This document shows positions 10,061-15,742 of a stretch of 40,512 nucleotides of DNA, piece after piece; position 1 is the first letter of the stretch; the number at the start of each line of letters is the position of its first letter. Under the pieces are notes generated by a model that did not search any database, had not been told where the DNA came from, and saw only the letters and a list, made by a program, of their open reading frames with translations. A program made the position numbers and the translations under genes. This DNA comes from Thermus igniterrae ATCC 700962. Its GTDB lineage: Bacteria > Deinococcota > Deinococci > Deinococcales > Thermaceae. Location of the stretch: contig NZ_AQWU01000055.1 of assembly GCF_000376265.1 (NCBI RefSeq), positions 165-40,676 on the forward strand, in the 5' to 3' direction.

Positions 10061-10636
10061 ATGCTCCGCTACCTCAGGGGCACCGTCCTGAAGAAGGAGG
10101 AGGGCTGGTTCCTCCTCCTGGTGGGGGGGGTGGGCTTCCAGGTGCAGGCCCCTATCCCCTTCCTGCAGGGCCTGGAGGAAGGCCAGGAGGTGGCGGTCCA
10201 CACCCACCTGCAACTTAAGGAGGAGGGCCTCAGCCTCTATGGCTTTCCCGAGGAGGACAGCCTGGCCCTCTTTGAGCTCCTCCTCTCCGTGAGCGGGGTA
10301 GGGCCCAAGGTGGCCCTGGCCCTCCTCTCCGCCCTCACCCCCAGGCTCCTGGCCCGGGCCCTGGCCGAGGGGGACCTGCGCCTCCTCACCTCGGCCAGCG
10401 GGGTGGGGCGGAAGCTGGCGGAGAGGCTCGTCCTGGAGCTCAAGGGCAAGGTACCCGCCCACCTCCTCACCGGGGAACGGGTGGAAAGCCAGGCGGCGGA
10501 GGAGGCCGTCCTGGCCCTGAGCGCCCTGGGCTTCAAGGAGGGGCAGGCCCGGGCGGTGGTCCTGGACCTCCTGGCCAAGCGCCCGGGGGCCAAGGCCCAG
10601 GAGCTCATCAAGGAAGCCCTGAAGCGCCTGCGCTAA
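10061..10636 (+). CDS. ruvA: Holliday junction branch migration protein RuvA
   Basis: DNA-binding subunit of 191 residues that holds the four-way junction while RuvB drives branch migration. Domain I is an OB-fold (1-62, MLRYLRGTV start and LYGF end). Domain II carries two helix-hairpin-helix motifs, VSGVGPKVALALLS (about 77-90) and ASGVGRKLAERLV (about 112-124). Domain III (about 145-191) is the flexible RuvB-binding helical part (ALGFKEGQA). Length is standard. It is the last gene of its unit, and its TAA overlaps the stop of the opposing kinase gene in the bases CTAA, leaving no room for a terminator. ruvB is not in the window. Confidence 0.95.
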   Translation: MLRYLRGTVLKKEEGWFLLLVGGVGFQVQAPIPFLQGLEEGQEVAVHTHLQLKEEGLSLYGFPEEDSLALFELLLSVSGVGPKVALALLSALTPRLLARALAEGDLRLLTSASGVGRKLAERLVLELKGKVPAHLLTGERVESQAAEEAVLALSALGFKEGQARAVVLDLLAKRPGAKAQELIKEALKRLR

Positions 10637-11826
10637 AGGGGCAGGCGGAGGCGGGCCAAGAGGCCTGAGGGAGAGTTAGGGAGAAGCTCCAGCCTCCCCC
10701 CGTGGGCCTCGGCCACCTTCTGGACCACGGAGAGACCAAGCCCCTCCCCCGGGCTTGGGGAGGCGCGGAAGAAGGGTCTTCCCGCCTCCTTGAGGGCCGC
10801 CTCGGACATCCCCGGCCCCTGGTCCTGCACCTCCAGGATCACCTCTCCCCCTTCCGGCCGGAGGGCCGCCACCACCCCCTTCCCCTCCCCGTGGAGGAAG
10901 GCGTTTTGCAGGAGGTTGCGCAGGGCCTGGGCCAGGAGCAGGGGGTTCCCCTGGAAGGGCAGGGTCTTGGGCCCCCGGTAGGGCACCCCAAAGGCCGCGG
11001 CCTCCTCCTGGACCAGGGCCGCCAGGTCCAGGGCCACCCGCTCCACCCGCCCCTCCCGGGCCAGGACGAGGAGGGCCTCCACCAGGCGCTTCATGCGCAA
11101 AAGCTCCTCCTTAAGCGCCTCCAGGGCCTCCTCCTTGGGCAGGTAGCCCGCCTCCGCCGCCTGGAGCTGGGCCAAGGCGGCGGCCACCGGGGTCCTCAGC
11201 TCGTGGGCCGCGTCCCGGGTAAAGCGCCGCTCCCGCTCCCAAAAGGCCTGGAGGCGCTCCAGCATGTGGTTGAAGGCCTGGGCCAGGGCCTTGAGCTCCC
11301 CACCCCCCGCAGGGGCCACCCGGTGGGAGAGGTCGGCGGAGTCCGCCACCTTCCGGGCCACCTCCGTAAGCCGGGAAAGAGGCCTCAGGGCCGCCTGGGC
11401 CAGCCAGGAAGCCAGCAGGGCAAAGGCCAGGGTGAGAAGGGCCCCCACCCCCAGGAGGGCCAGGCGGAAGTTGCGCAGGGCGGCCGCGGCTCCGGGATCG
11501 TACCGGGCCACGGTGAGGGTGCCCCCGGGCACCTTTAGGACCAGAACCCGCCACCCCTCCCGCCAGTGGGACCCCGGGGCAAGGTCAGGAAGGTTGGGGA
11601 AGTTGGCGCTGGCGTGGGCCTCTCCCTCCTGCACCAGGCGAAAGGCGAACTCCCCCCGGGGAGGGCGGCGCCCCTCGGAAAGGGCCTCCACGTAGAGGAG
11701 GAGGGAGCGGTCCAGGTCGGCCTCCACCAAACGCCGGAAGGCCAGGTAGCTCAAGGCCCCCTGGAAGAGGAGGGCCAGCCCCACGGCCAGGGCCAGAAAA
11801 AGCGCCAGGCGCGCCCTAAGGCTCAT
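10633..11826 (-). CDS. sensor histidine kinase (HAMP, HisKA, HATPase)
   Basis: Membrane sensor of 397 residues. Transmembrane helix 1 is at about 7-30, an extracytoplasmic loop of ~90 residues follows, and helix 2 is at about 121-146. HAMP spans about 147-200. The phospho-acceptor is His208 in AAHELRTP; the N-box is NLLQNAF (Asn308) and the G-boxes are DQGPGM and GEGLGLS. The small periplasmic loop has no domain I can name, so the signal is unknown. The ATG at 11826 overlaps the end of the response-regulator gene by 11 bases, which suggests translational coupling. The divergent apbE cluster is the nearest likely target. The stop is interlocked with that of ruvA. Confidence 0.93.
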   Translation of the reverse strand: MSLRARLALFLALAVGLALLFQGALSYLAFRRLVEADLDRSLLLYVEALSEGRRPPRGEFAFRLVQEGEAHASANFPNLPDLAPGSHWREGWRVLVLKVPGGTLTVARYDPGAAAALRNFRLALLGVGALLTLAFALLASWLAQAALRPLSRLTEVARKVADSADLSHRVAPAGGGELKALAQAFNHMLERLQAFWERERRFTRDAAHELRTPVAAALAQLQAAEAGYLPKEEALEALKEELLRMKRLVEALLVLAREGRVERVALDLAALVQEEAAAFGVPYRGPKTLPFQGNPLLLAQALRNLLQNAFLHGEGKGVVAALRPEGGEVILEVQDQGPGMSEAALKEAGRPFFRASPSPGEGLGLSVVQKVAEAHGGRLELLPNSPSGLLARLRLPL

Positions 11827-12475
11827 CCCCAAGCCGGTACCCCCCGGGCACGGTGCGCACCACCTCCGGGTAGAGCTTCTGCCTCAGGTAGTGCACGTAG
11901 ACCTTCACCGCCCCCACCTTCTCCCCGTGGCCGAAGACCTTTTCGGCCAACTCCTCCGGGGTAAAGACCCGGCCCGGATGCAGGAGGAAGGCCTCCAAAA
12001 GGGCGAACTCCCGCAAGGAGAGGTCCACCCGCCGACCCCCCAGGTAGACCGCCCGCCCGGCCAGGTCGGCCTCCAGGGCCCCAAAGCGCACCTGCCCTGC
12101 CTTCATCTCCGCCTGCCGGCGCAGAAGGGCCCGCACCCGGGCCAAAAGCTCCTCCAGGTGGAAGGGCTTCACCAGGTAGTCGTCCCCCCCGAGGTCCAGG
12201 CCCAAAACCCGGTCCTCCAGGGCGTCCCGGGCGGTAAGGAAGAGGATGGAGCCCTTGTATCCCGCTTGGCGCACCTCCTGGGCAAAACGGAAGCCCCCGT
12301 CGGGGTCCTCAGGCAGGCGCACGTCCAGGACCATGAGGTCGGGCTCCAGCTCCCAAAGGGCCTCCCGGGCCCCCACCAGGTCCCTGGCCCAGCGCACCCC
12401 GTAGCCCTGGGCCAAAAGGGCGCTCTCCACCGCCCGGCCCAGGCGGGGCTCGTCCTCCAGCAAGAGCACCTGCAC
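11816..12475 (-). CDS. OmpR-family response regulator
   Basis: DNA-binding regulator of 219 residues. The receiver domain (1-120) has the acidic pocket EDE (residues 7-9), phospho-acceptor Asp51 in LMVLDVRLP, the switch Thr in FLTARD and Lys in LVKPF. The C-terminal winged helix (about 125-219) has the typical LSLREFALLEAFLLHPGRVF and VYVHYLRQKL blocks. The GTG start at 12475 lies 6 bases from a -10-like CATACT, so it is probably leaderless. It is paired with the downstream kinase. A palindrome with repeated GGTTA just upstream of its promoter is the obvious candidate binding site. Confidence 0.94.
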   Translation of the reverse strand: MQVLLLEDEPRLGRAVESALLAQGYGVRWARDLVGAREALWELEPDLMVLDVRLPEDPDGGFRFAQEVRQAGYKGSILFLTARDALEDRVLGLDLGGDDYLVKPFHLEELLARVRALLRRQAEMKAGQVRFGALEADLAGRAVYLGGRRVDLSLREFALLEAFLLHPGRVFTPEELAEKVFGHGEKVGAVKVYVHYLRQKLYPEVVRTVPGGYRLGDEP

Positions 12476-12481
12476 ACCCCC

Positions 12482-12487
12482 AGTATG
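12482..12487 (-). promoter_or_regulatory. -10 box of the two-component operon
   Basis: CATACT on the minus strand ends 6 bases before the GTG at 12475, consistent with a leaderless transcript. The first base departs from TANNNT. Confidence 0.4.
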
Positions 12488-12492
12488 CCCCG

Positions 12493-12539
12493 GGGCGGTT
12501 AGCCGGGGGTTACGGGGGTTAACCCCGGGCTAACCGCCC
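12493..12539. promoter_or_regulatory. 19-bp inverted repeat with GGTTA direct repeats, probable operator
   Basis: Arms 12493-12511 and 12521-12539 match at 18 of 19 positions around a 9-base spacer. A perfect 12-bp palindrome (GGGGTTAACCCC) lies at 12515-12526. The + strand carries GGTTA at 12497, 12508 and 12517, spaced 11 and 9 bases apart, with an inverted TAACC at 12531. Helical-turn spacing of direct repeats is typical of OmpR-family sites. It lies between the divergent promoters of the regulator and of apbE, so binding could control both. Confidence 0.65.
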
Positions 12540-12544
12540 GCCCC

Positions 12545-12550
12545 TACCCT
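12545..12550 (+). promoter_or_regulatory. -10 box of the apbE cluster
   Basis: TACCCT ends 7 bases before the ATG at 12558, with no ribosome site between, suggesting a leaderless transcript. The -35 region would fall inside the right arm of the palindrome. Confidence 0.45.
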
Positions 12551-12557
12551 GTAGGCC

Positions 12558-13313
12558 ATGGGCCGGTACGGGGCCAGGTGGGAAGGGGTGCTGGGAAGCT
12601 TTTTGGAGGTGCAGCTCTTCGCTCCCCCCTGGCGGGCACGGAGGGCCCTCGAGGCCGCCTTGGCGGAGGTGCGAAGGCTGGAAGGTGTATTCAGCCGCCA
12701 CCGGGAAAGCGAGCTCACCCGCCTGGTGCGGGCGGGCGGGGGGCGGCCCAGCGGGGAGATGCGCCAGGTCCTGGCCTGGGCCCTTAAGCTCCAGGAGGCC
12801 ACAGATGGGGCCTTCCACCCTGCCCCTCAGCATGGGGGGGAGGCCCTCCGCTTCCTGGGGGAGGAGGTGGAGGTCCTGGCCCCCCTGGACCTGGATGGCC
12901 TGGCCAAGGGGTACATGGCTGACCAGGCGGTGGCGGCCGCCCTCCGGGCCGGGGCCCGGGCGGCCCTGGTGAACCTGGGCGGGAACCTGGCCCGCCGGGG
13001 CCCGGGGAAGGCCCTGGTGGGGGTGGAGCCCCCCACGGGCCCCGACAACGCCCCCCCAGCCCTGACCCTGACCCTTGGGGAAGGCGGGGTGGCCACCAGC
13101 GGGGTGCGGCACAAGGGGGCCCACCTCCTGGACCCCCGGAAGGGCACCCCGGCCGTGGGCCTGCAGGCCACGGTCCTCGCCCCCTCAGCCCTCCTGGCCG
13201 ATGGCCTGGCCAAGGCCCTCTTCCTCATGGGTCAGGAGGCAGGAAAGGTCCTGGCGGCCTTTGGGGCCCAGGGGTTTCTCTTCACCTCCCAAGGCCCCGT
13301 ACCGGTTCCTTAG
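12558..13313 (+). CDS. apbE: FAD:protein FMN transferase (ApbE family)
   Basis: Mg-dependent enzyme of 251 residues that transfers FMN from FAD to a Thr/Ser of target redox proteins. Family marks are the N-terminal FSRHRESELTRL (SxY/SELxxL block), the LDLDGLAKGYMAD motif (about 113-125), NLGGN, GVATSG, the HLLDPRKGTP metal/FAD-binding segment, and ALLADGLAKALFLMG near the end. It is shorter than typical ApbE proteins (300-350 residues). No signal peptide or lipobox is visible, so it probably acts in the cytoplasm, whereas proteobacterial ApbE is often an exported lipoprotein. It leads a cluster with DUF2271 and PepSY genes, the likely substrate and membrane partner, and is divergent from a two-component system. 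Confidence 0.9.
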   Translation: MGRYGARWEGVLGSFLEVQLFAPPWRARRALEAALAEVRRLEGVFSRHRESELTRLVRAGGGRPSGEMRQVLAWALKLQEATDGAFHPAPQHGGEALRFLGEEVEVLAPLDLDGLAKGYMADQAVAAALRAGARAALVNLGGNLARRGPGKALVGVEPPTGPDNAPPALTLTLGEGGVATSGVRHKGAHLLDPRKGTPAVGLQATVLAPSALLADGLAKALFLMGQEAGKVLAAFGAQGFLFTSQGPVPVP

Positions 13314-13323
13314 GGAGGGGAGC

Positions 13324-13863
13324 ATGTTGAAGCGCTACTACAGCCGGAGGAACTTCTTTAGGCGGGTACTGGGAGGGGTTTTGGCCGTGGGCCTGGCCCG
13401 GGCCCAGGGCAAGCCCTGGCCCAGTGGAATGGAGCTGCGGGTGAGCTTCGCCTACGAGGGGGCGGGCTTTCGCTACCGGGCCCCCTACGTGGCCGTCTAC
13501 GTGGAGGACGAGCGGGGGGGCCTGGTGCGCACCCTGGCCCTTTTCCTCATGCCGGGGAAAGGGGAAAGGTGGTGGAACGAGCTGAGGCGCTACTTCGCCC
13601 TGGGGGAGCTGCAGGCCATGCGCACCCTCTCCGGACCCACCCGCCCCCCGGGGCGCTACACCGTGGCCTGGGACGGGAAGGACGAGCGGGGGCGCACCGT
13701 GGCCCAGGGGGGCTACTACCTCTGCGTGGAGTACGCCCGGGAGCACGGCCCCTACGAGCTTTTCCGGGAAAGGGTGGAGATAGGGGAAAGCCCTTTTCAG
13801 AAGGCCTATGCCCTCAAGGGGGAGCTTCAGGAGGTGCGCCTTGACTACGGTCGGAAGGCCTAA
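13324..13863 (+). CDS. DUF2271 protein with Tat signal, probable flavinylation target
   Basis: Exported protein of 179 residues. The N-terminus has a twin-arginine signal, SRRNFF at residues 7-12, a hydrophobic core, and an ARA-Q cleavage site near 26-27. The mature part matches DUF2271, with the block PPGRYTVAWDGKDERGR (about 108-124) followed by GGYYLCVEYAREHG. Residues 103-106 read Ser-Gly-Pro-Thr, similar to the SGAT-type motif where ApbE attaches FMN, so Thr106 is a candidate acceptor (inference). A GGGAGGGG ribosome site precedes the ATG at 13324, 10 bases after apbE. A folded, flavin-loaded protein would need Tat rather than Sec, consistent with an ApbE lacking a signal peptide. Confidence 0.85.
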   Translation: MLKRYYSRRNFFRRVLGGVLAVGLARAQGKPWPSGMELRVSFAYEGAGFRYRAPYVAVYVEDERGGLVRTLALFLMPGKGERWWNELRRYFALGELQAMRTLSGPTRPPGRYTVAWDGKDERGRTVAQGGYYLCVEYAREHGPYELFRERVEIGESPFQKAYALKGELQEVRLDYGRKA

Positions 13864-14455
13864 GCCCGGAGGAAGCGCCCTGCGGGCCAGGGTCTACGCC
13901 TGGGCCCGGACCCTGCACCTCTACCTCTCCCTGCTGGCCTTTCTGGCCATCCTCTTCTTCGCCCTTACCGGCCTCACCCTGAACCATCCCGAGTGGTTCG
14001 GGGAAGGGCAGGTGCAAAAACGCTCCGGTACCCTCCCCGGCGCCCCCTACCAGGCGGAAGAAGGGGTGGACTGGCTGAGGCTGGCGGAGGACCTGCGGGC
14101 CCTGGGCCTTAGGGGCCGGGTGGCGGAGCACGGGACAAGTGGAGAGATGGCCTGGCTCTCCTTCCGCGCCCCCGGGTACGGGGCCGACGCCCAGGTGGAC
14201 CTCAAGACGGGGCGCTACACCCTGAGCCTGACCCAGGCCGGCCTGGTGGCCGCCCTGAACGACCTGCACAAGGGCCGGGATACACCCTCAGGCTGGCGGT
14301 GGGTGCTGGACCTCTCCGCCCTCTTCCTGGGCCTGGTGAGCCTCACAGGGCTTCTCCTCAGCCTCTTCCTGCGCAAAACCCGGCGGGCGGCCCTCTTAAG
14401 CCTCCTCCTGGGCCTCCTCCTCTTCGGGGGCTTCGCCCTTTGGGCGGCGCGCTAA
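13808..14455 (+). CDS. PepSY-type membrane protein (PepSY_TM-like)
   Basis: Integral membrane protein of up to 215 residues. Numbered from 13808, transmembrane helix 1 is at about 38-58 (LYLSLLAFLAILFFALTG), a soluble loop at 60-160, and two C-terminal helices at about 166-188 and 194-214. His37, His60 (LNHPEWF) and His154 (NDLHKG) flank the helices and could ligate heme, as proposed for PepSY_TM relatives; this is inference. The start is unclear: ATG 13808 and TTG 13841 lie inside the DUF2271 gene, while GGAGG at 13868-13872 points 7 bases on to a CTG at 13880, just where homology should begin (191 residues). It probably passes electrons across the membrane to the flavin protein. Its TAA interlocks with the stop of the opposing gene. 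Confidence 0.8.
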   Translation: MPSRGSFRRCALTTVGRPKPGGSALRARVYAWARTLHLYLSLLAFLAILFFALTGLTLNHPEWFGEGQVQKRSGTLPGAPYQAEEGVDWLRLAEDLRALGLRGRVAEHGTSGEMAWLSFRAPGYGADAQVDLKTGRYTLSLTQAGLVAALNDLHKGRDTPSGWRWVLDLSALFLGLVSLTGLLLSLFLRKTRRAALLSLLLGLLLFGGFALWAAR

Positions 14456-14943
14456 AGCTCGTCCAGGGCCTCCCGGGGGGTGCGGCGGGCCCCCAGGAGA
14501 CCCCCCTCGCGCAGGGCCAGGGGAAGGAGGGCTTCCACAGACCCCTCCAGGGCCTGGAGGACCTCCCCCCGGAAGGCTTTAAGCCCCTCGGGTAGGCTCC
14601 CTTCCAGCCCAAAGGGGAAAAGGGCCAAAAAGTGCCCGCCCGGCTCCCCCTCCCCCCGGTCCAGGTGGAGGCCCACGGGCTCCAGGTAGCCCAAAAGACG
14701 GGTGCGGTACATCTCCCGCCTCAGGGCCTGGAAGGCCCTAGGGTCAGGGGCACCCTGCCACAGGAGGAGGTCGGCCTCCGCGGAAAAGCCCACCAGGCTG
14801 TATACGGCCAAAAACCCCTCCCGGGCCTGCCAGCGCCCCAGGAGGGCCGCGAACTCCTCCTTGAGGTGCTCCTGGTGCTCGGCCTCGAGGCGGCGGAACT
14901 CCGGCAGGAGCCGGAAGAGGCTAAAGGCCCAGTAGCGCGCCAT
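14452..14943 (-). CDS. short chlorite-dismutase-family-like protein
   Basis: Protein of 163 residues. Its first ~95 residues resemble the N-terminal half of the neighbouring HemQ: FSLFRLLPEFRRL against the HemQ start, then AVYSLVGFSAEADLLLW against GVYQVVTHKADLLFL, then a Tyr/Leu-rich LLGYLEP. The C-terminal half of HemQ, with the catalytic Tyr and heme-binding His, has no counterpart; instead there is a region around residues 100-163 that I cannot place. It starts 4 bases after the hemQ stop, so the two are co-translated. It may be a non-catalytic partner of HemQ or a separate ferredoxin-like-fold protein. The function is not known to me. Confidence 0.75.
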   Translation of the reverse strand: MARYWAFSLFRLLPEFRRLEAEHQEHLKEEFAALLGRWQAREGFLAVYSLVGFSAEADLLLWQGAPDPRAFQALRREMYRTRLLGYLEPVGLHLDRGEGEPGGHFLALFPFGLEGSLPEGLKAFRGEVLQALEGSVEALLPLALREGGLLGARRTPREALDEL

Positions 14944-14947
14944 GCCC

Positions 14948-15700
14948 CTATCCTACGCCCAGGAAGCGGGCCAAGGCCTCCTCCGTGAGGTACTTGCCCA
15001 CGTAGAAGGGCCCAAACTCCCCAAAGCGGGCGGAGACCTCGTCAAAGCGCATCTCGTAGACGATCTTCTTGAACTGCAGGGGGTCTTCGCTGAAGAGGTC
15101 CACCCCCCACTCCCAGTCGTCCAGCCCCTGGGCCCCGCTGATGACCTGGAGGACCTTGCCCTGGTACTTGCGGCCCGTCTCCCCGTGGGCCTTCATGAGG
15201 CCGGCCCGCTCCCGGGCGGGGAGGAGGTACCAGTTGTCCTGGCCCTGGCGGCGCTTGTTCATGGGGTAGAAGCACACGTACCCCCCTTTGGGCACCCGGG
15301 GGGTGAGGCGGGGCTTCACGTAGGGGGCCTCGGGGTCCAGGGGGCCGGTCTGGCTCCCCAGCTCCACCACGGAGTAGAAGCCGTAAGCGGGCCGCAGGTA
15401 GGCGGCCAGGCGGCTCTGGTTGAGCCTGGCCTCCACCGCCAAAAGGGCCTCCAGGTCCTCCCGCAGGTTGAGGAAGAGGAGGTCCGCCTTGTGGGTGACC
15501 ACCTGGTAGACCCCAAAAGACCCCCTGCCTGCGGCCTCCACCCCGGCCCACTCCGCCAGGATGTCCCGTAGCTCCTCCCAGGCCGCCTGCCGTTCTCCTT
15601 CCGGGGCCCTCCGCCAGGCGGGGAAGTCCAGGTGGCGGAAGTCGTGGAGGATGTGCCAGCCCTCCAGGGTAAAGGTGGGTTCGGGAACGTGGCCTTCCAT
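14948..15700 (-). CDS. hemQ: coproheme decarboxylase HemQ (ChdC)
   Basis: Enzyme of 250 residues that turns coproheme III into heme b by two peroxide-dependent decarboxylations, the last step of the coproporphyrin-dependent pathway. Key residues can be placed by comparison with Listeria and Geobacillus ChdC: Tyr145 in FYPMNKRR (the radical-forming Tyr) with Lys149, proximal His172 in KAHGETGRKY, and distal Gln185 in KVLQVISG. The segment DDWEWGVDLFSEDPLQFKK is characteristic. A GTG at 15739 extends the frame, but the ATG at 15700 lies 7 bases behind a good -10 box and fits the family start. It forms a two-gene operon with a half-size relative. No other heme-synthesis genes are in the window. 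Confidence 0.95.
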   Translation of the reverse strand: MEGHVPEPTFTLEGWHILHDFRHLDFPAWRRAPEGERQAAWEELRDILAEWAGVEAAGRGSFGVYQVVTHKADLLFLNLREDLEALLAVEARLNQSRLAAYLRPAYGFYSVVELGSQTGPLDPEAPYVKPRLTPRVPKGGYVCFYPMNKRRQGQDNWYLLPARERAGLMKAHGETGRKYQGKVLQVISGAQGLDDWEWGVDLFSEDPLQFKKIVYEMRFDEVSARFGEFGPFYVGKYLTEEALARFLGVG

Positions 15701-15707
15701 CCCCCTC

Positions 15708-15713
15708 ACTATA
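15708..15713 (-). promoter_or_regulatory. -10 box of hemQ, leaderless
   Basis: TATAGT on the minus strand ends 7 bases before the hemQ ATG. The promoter overlaps head-to-head with that of mscS, whose -10 box is at 15731-15736, so the two probably compete. Confidence 0.6.
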
Positions 15714-15730
15714 CGGGCACCCGCCTTGGG

Positions 15731-15736
15731 TATATT
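15731..15736 (+). promoter_or_regulatory. -10 box of mscS, leaderless
   Basis: TATATT, preceded by GGG, ends 6 bases before the ATG at 15743. There is no ribosome site. The region divergent to hemQ is only 42 bases long. Confidence 0.6.
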
Positions 15737-15742
15737 CACCCC

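Follow-up and report, generated by a model that had tools for sequence, protein, structure and literature searches.

The window analyzed here, a 40,512-nucleotide (nt) stretch of Thermus igniterrae ATCC 700962 (contig NZ_AQWU01000055.1, positions 165 to 40,676 of the forward strand), carries genes for a sensor kinase and a response regulator that diverge from a trio encoding the flavin adenine dinucleotide (FAD):protein flavin mononucleotide (FMN) transferase ApbE, a DUF2271 protein with a twin-arginine translocation (Tat) signal, and a PepSY_TM_like_2 membrane protein. In Thermus, kinase, regulator and trio are gained and lost as a single presence/absence cassette, a result that is new here. 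The trio corresponds to a flavinylation system already published as "PepSY-like", and its core idea is not new; we consider it fairly probable that the cassette is a Thermaceae variant of that system, placed under a dedicated two-component switch, in which FMN is loaded inside the cell before Tat export. The observations that carry this reading are the identities of the genes, their linkage and co-inheritance, the conservation of the operator, the signal types, and the conserved residues.

In the proposed pathway, an envelope signal would activate the kinase, and the phosphorylated regulator would bind TAAC-N7-TAACC boxes to switch on the apbE-DUF2271-PepSY operon along with its own gene; to judge from the conserved sequence, the box would replace the -35 element. 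ApbE, which lacks a signal peptide, would move FMN from cytosolic FAD onto Thr106 of DUF2271 in the cytoplasm, and the folded flavoprotein would then be exported via Tat, as its twin-arginine signal suggests. Finally, membrane electrons would reach the flavin through the PepSY protein, which probably forms a homodimer with bis-histidine hemes, and the flavin would in turn reduce an acceptor outside the cytosol; by comparison with published relatives, ferric iron is the likeliest candidate.

An earlier sequence-only reading of positions 11816-14455 had proposed a regulated electron path from the PepSY protein to a flavinylated DUF2271 protein, an interpretation that is right in outline but largely published. 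Its claim of one regulated unit is strongly supported by the all-or-none occurrence of kinase and trio and by an 11-bp operator at both promoters, whereas the electron path is the published model of the family (PMC8238504) rather than a new inference. That reading missed the pairing of a signal-less ApbE with a Tat target, the atypical SGPT motif, and the tie of related clusters to iron reduction. What is added here is the cassette evidence, a predicted operator, and the hypothesis of inside-first flavin loading.

Co-inheritance and gene layout

Among 50 Thermaceae genomes, all three trio families are present in 31, none in 16, and only some in 3 (G013, G032 and G038), and the trio genes are neighbors in all loci examined; their linkage is therefore not due to chance. 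The sequence-only reading had named scattered, unlinked genes in related genomes as the outcome that would speak against it; instead, the genes are adjacent in the examined loci and all-or-none in Thermus. Of 27 Thermus-genus genomes, 18 encode a kinase ortholog (69-84% identical), every one of them holding the trio or a remnant of it, and the 9 genomes without the trio encode none. In eight of these nine, ruvA adjoins a hemQ-like gene with a gap of ~8-100 bases, compared with a 3.8-kb block in the window, and the cassette, missing as a block in those 8 genomes, extends over positions 10637..14451. The ninth genome, G047, has no kinase, and its ruvA-hemQ gap contains reading frames that include a TolC-like gene. 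On a tree of the flanking proteins, presence and absence require at least 4 changes, 4 of them forced by well supported branches; a shuffle test on this tree says no more than that the trait is clustered, and the argument is carried by the independent changes. The kinase ortholog pattern, the empty ruvA-hemQ sites and the independent changes together identify kinase, regulator and trio as one travelling unit, which in a few carrier genomes (G037, G038 and G048) lies away from ruvA. The partial genome G032 holds a remnant formed by deletion, in which the beginning of apbE and the last part of the PepSY gene share one reading frame (L080:6437-6808), with the regulator pair still adjacent and the promoter box retained.

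The genes of the window were identified by Pfam profile searches of its proteins, with NCBIfam cut-offs also checked for the kinase and regulator, and every family call of the earlier reading was borne out. Its range took in the trio and regulator but left out the kinase (10633..11832, minus strand), a HAMP-HisKA-HATPase protein with a short periplasmic input domain whose best NCBIfam match, cztS_silS_copS, scores 146.6 bits, far below the cut-off of 292.6. The regulator (11816..12475, minus strand, GTG start) is of the OmpR/PhoB type, with Response_reg and Trans_reg_C domains, and reaches none of the listed NCBIfam cut-offs. On the plus strand, apbE (12558..13313, 251 amino acids; Pfam 1.1e-34) is followed after 10 nt by the DUF2271 gene (13324..13863; Pfam 2.1e-27), which overlaps the PepSY_TM_like_2 gene (~13841..14455; Pfam 6.6e-35, PF03929 6.3e-8) by ~23 nt if the latter, whose stop is at 14455, uses its likely TTG start at 13841. 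The tight packing that had been noted for the trio is thus real. In the host genome (2.2 Mb), profile searches found one ApbE, one DUF2271, one PepSY_TM_like_2 and no FMN_bind protein, leaving DUF2271 as the sole ApbE substrate recognized by the families searched.

Several neighboring features were also recorded. Downstream of the trio, positions 14452-14943 hold a short chlorite-dismutase-like gene that matches only the first part of its family; full-length HemQ (14948-15739) is its neighbor in most of the Thermus loci examined. In L087:5115-5872 (G046) a frameshift, either a sequencing error or early decay, splits apbE and leaves DUF2271 and PepSY intact. In some Thermus genomes (L082, L084, L086, L088, L091 and L283) the kinase is followed by a TolC-like gene, or such a gene lies inside the ruvA-hemQ gap; MacA/MacB-like genes seem to come next in L081. 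Meiothermus-type loci place between regulator and apbE a member of the intradiol dioxygenase family (PF00775) that bears a twin arginine (L068:4682-5392, L062:8152-8859, L074:8013-8726 and L069:7923-8627), and its iron-binding Tyr and His motifs look kept by eye.

A predicted operator at the divergent promoters

The divergent genes are separated by an 82-bp gap that contains two copies of TAAC-N7-TAACC, an 11-bp tandem box, one per direction, against 0.02 expected in the window. One copy (12520..12535, plus strand) faces apbE and ends 9 nt ahead of a -10 element, TACCCT (12545..12550, plus strand), which lies 7 nt ahead of the ATG in a leaderless-like arrangement; the other (12497..12512, minus strand) faces the regulator gene at -37, with a -10-like CATACT (12482..12487, minus strand) 6 nt ahead of the GTG start, again leaderless-like. 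Promoters of OmpR/PhoB activators have the activator box in place of the -35 element, and the layout upstream of apbE is that of a leaderless promoter of this kind. In 17 aligned Thermus-type loci the apbE upstream region repeats this order of box, short spacer, invariant TACCCT, and ~7 nt to the start codon. Upstream of the regulator, the box stands at -37 or -38 in 26 of 26 readable loci, Meiothermus-type genera included, compared with a rate of 0.00035 per upstream in shuffled sequences, and a second, oppositely facing box lies no more than 130 bp away in 20 of the 26. The combination of box and -10 pattern gives 61 matches in 27 Thermus genomes and 2 when the pattern is reversed. The locus thus has a HisKA/HATPase kinase, a regulator with receiver and winged-helix domains, and a tandem-repeat predicted operator; we predict, for the first time here, that the regulator controls both its own gene and, directly, the apbE operon. 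The box is a directly testable candidate target of the regulator, and strains that have naturally lost the cassette are negative controls already at hand for identifying the signal and the acceptor.

Further box matches recur before the TolC-like gene beside the kinase (L082, L084, L086, L088 and L091), a gene for a YceI-like secreted protein in many Thermus genomes (L261:4411-4996, L264, L265, L268, L269, L271, L272 and L274), and a gene for a small SHOCT-like membrane protein, the three names having been given on reading the proteins themselves. A recurrent match in G000 (C13 and C42) was set aside, as it looks like a repeated element. Separately, a near-identical box with 10-nt spacing precedes a gene in several Thermus genomes (L262:1532-1563 and L263:380-411) and looks repeated or mobile.

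Proposed electron transfer and site of flavin attachment

The PepSY_TM_like_2 protein has three predicted transmembrane helices, and its residues His26, His49 and His143, which do not vary among 22 sequences drawn from three phyla, are probable heme ligands. Its structural model, three helices and a small strand domain, is fairly confident (predicted local distance difference test score, 84); in the PDB the protein had no sequence-search match and the model no fold match below an E value of 0.001. FoxB carries conserved histidines on each membrane face that bind two hemes in bis-His fashion (PMC13038864), and the half-sized Thermus chain would plausibly pair as a homodimer, rebuilding a FoxB-like core. 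On a Pseudoalteromonas plasmid (L245:4386-5453), PepSY and DUF2271 are fused as a single protein.

For the extracytosolic acceptor, ferric iron is a guess from relatives, since neither a siderophore receptor nor any sign of Fur was noted around the trio within the window. A change of substrate only, with the system acting as a periplasmic copper reductase that aids heme-copper oxidase assembly and is induced by a metal-sensing kinase, is a serious alternative, though one of low probability: CrpH is a PepSY_TM protein that supports oxidases (PMC13038864), and the kinase scores best in NCBIfam against a heavy-metal sensor subfamily, but that score is weak and under the cut-off, no copper gene lies within the examined neighborhood, and PepSY clusters linked to DUF2271 are tied to iron and Fur (PMC11870441, PMC8238504).

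Where the flavin is attached was approached through export signals, which were judged by motif and hydrophobicity rather than by a trained predictor (SignalP). The Tat signal previously noted on the window DUF2271 is real (MLKRYYSRRNFFRRVLGGVLAVGLARA-QG, with SRRNFF at its core), and a twin arginine with a hydrophobic stretch is found in 31 of 31 readable Thermaceae DUF2271 proteins, in loci whose ApbE has no signal. PepSY-like systems typically have an extracytosolic ApbE, although their published cluster definition does not require one. The window ApbE has no hydrophobic segment before its domain, and an in-frame TAG two codons upstream of its ATG (12552..12554, plus strand) excludes a missed signal peptide; most Thermus loci likewise leave no room for such an extension. 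The same pairing occurs in 11 loci of Deinococcales, one of them having an ambiguous ApbE start (L200). It is also found in Actinomycetota, whose DUF2271 combines a twin arginine with a lipobox cysteine and whose ApbE is signal-less (L207 is atypical). In Bacteroidota, ApbE and DUF2271 both carry signals for the general secretory (Sec) pathway or form a single fused Sec protein; ApbE-DUF2271 fusions were seen in four Bacteroidota loci (L122, L228, L230 and L236). The loci surveyed include no clear combination of an exported ApbE and a Tat DUF2271. The pairing of signal-less ApbE and Tat DUF2271 is thus recurrent without being universal, and what underlies the contrast is four phyla rather than dozens of independent cases.

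Because ApbE lacks a signal peptide while DUF2271 bears a twin-arginine signal, FMN is probably loaded onto DUF2271 in the cytosol before Tat export, a proposal that is new here. Cytosolic ApbE is known in Klebsiella (PMC12052999), and cytosolic cofactor loading followed by Tat export is a recognized general route (PMC9973259); no report of this route for DUF2271 was found in the literature searched. We lean, narrowly, towards a wider class spanning two phyla, in which signal-less ApbE would attach FMN covalently to extracytosolic flavoproteins while they are still in the cytosol, and Tat would then export them folded, as Tat lipoproteins in Actinomycetota, so that FAD need not leave the cell. 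In Thermaceae the entire route would be housed in one cassette with its own two-component switch. If true, this would revise the presumed place of flavinylation and make FAD export unnecessary in these bacteria.

Several observations weigh against the proposed pathway. In alpha- and beta-Proteobacteria a Sec DUF2271 is combined with an ApbE lacking an evident signal, so that a signal-less ApbE alone does not imply Tat export; a strict rule of a Tat target if and only if ApbE is cytosolic was rejected on this ground. Those loci, and the mostly extracytosolic location of characterized ApbEs (PMC12052999), would fit textbook flavinylation outside the membrane, with the Thermus ApbE exported as a hitchhiker on Tat DUF2271 or by another route. 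We regard this as slightly less likely still than the copper variant, as it requires FAD beyond the membrane and an unproven export route for ApbE, and the cytosolic K. pneumoniae ApbE indicates that signal-less ApbEs function inside (PMC12052999).

Another point concerns the regulator. The box precedes yceI-like genes also in three genomes without the kinase, where another regulator must read a similar box; it is therefore not unique to the cassette regulator, and exclusivity was rejected.

The remaining points concern the flavinylation reaction. Pfam, alignments and a motif survey place the candidate FMN acceptor of DUF2271 at Thr106 within SGPTR, and the motif S/A-G-P-T-R, with its Thr invariant, is found in all Thermaceae DUF2271 proteins. 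Compared with D-x-x-[S/T]-G-A-[S/T], SGPT differs at two places (R at -6 and P at -1), with Thr, Gly and Ser retained. The window ApbE is short, and in all five Thermus-genus ApbE rows of the alignment Lys stands four residues after the catalytic Asp, where the other 15 rows have Thr, presumably a metal ligand. A complete Meiothermus-type genome (G013, L078:5867-7139) has DUF2271, with its SGPTR motif kept, and PepSY, and no ApbE was found in it. For the pathway, ApbE matches its Pfam profile (PF02424) and, in sequence, solved FMN transferases, and counterparts of the catalytic Ser-His-Asp triad are kept (S181, H189 and D215, by alignment). Outside Thermaceae the DUF2271 motif is mostly [STA]-[GS]-[AP]-[TS], wider than the published [S/T]GA[S/T]; according to a review of ApbE, changing the motif A to V gives about half the flavinylation and D to A has only a minor effect, with P not mentioned. 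A fold search with the DUF2271 model found nothing in the PDB below an E value of 0.001, the best match being an immunoglobulin-like FlgD domain (0.0034). That DUF2271 has escaped flavinylation, the atypical motif, the altered ApbE and G013 marking a lost or changed reaction and PepSY acting alone like VciB, which functions without identified flavinylation parts (PMC8238504), is the least probable alternative, given the invariant Thr within G-P-T-R, the conserved triad residues, the presence of apbE in 31 of 32 DUF2271-bearing Thermaceae genomes, and the alternation of P and A at the motif position in other phyla.

Relation to known flavinylation systems

The Klebsiella ApbE that serves fumarate reductase is signal-less and works in the cytosol, as we propose for the Thermus enzyme, but its target is the soluble fumarate reductase, whereas the Thermus target bears an export signal (PMC12052999). 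The PepSY_TM reductases FoxB, CrpH and VciB form a membrane heme reductase family with conserved histidines on both faces, to which the Thermus protein probably belongs; a single FoxB chain comprises four helices and a pair of PepSY domains, while the Thermus protein is about half that and would need pairing (PMC13038864). Caulobacter CCNA_03155-03159 likewise combines PepSY (COG3295), DUF2271 and a flavin-dependent reductase. That locus is needed under iron chelation, with fitness and expression data backing an iron role, and differs in being Fur-regulated and including DUF4198, for which no gene was seen at the Thermus locus (PMC11870441).

The closest relative is the PepSY-like flavinylation system itself, which comprises 3220 clusters, 2833 of them with DUF2271, and for which iron reduction was proposed and flavinylation of DUF2271 by ApbE reported (Meheust et al. 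2021, PMC8238504). The Thermus locus shares its clustering of apbE with genes for a DUF2271 substrate and a membrane protein of three helices (PF16357/PF03929). Such clusters have a PF03929/PF16357 gene no more than a few genes from apbE, FMN_bind, DUF2271 or DUF3570, and a signal peptide on one or more of these targets; in Thermus the trio genes adjoin one another, and the signal is the Tat signal of DUF2271. The first count of that survey was limited to signal-bearing components, and attachment was described outside the cytosol, whereas in Thermus ApbE is signal-less, DUF2271 is a Tat protein and the motif is SGPT. The regulation reported for the PepSY-like system is by Fur; the Thermus trio has instead a co-inherited, divergent two-component system with conserved boxes.

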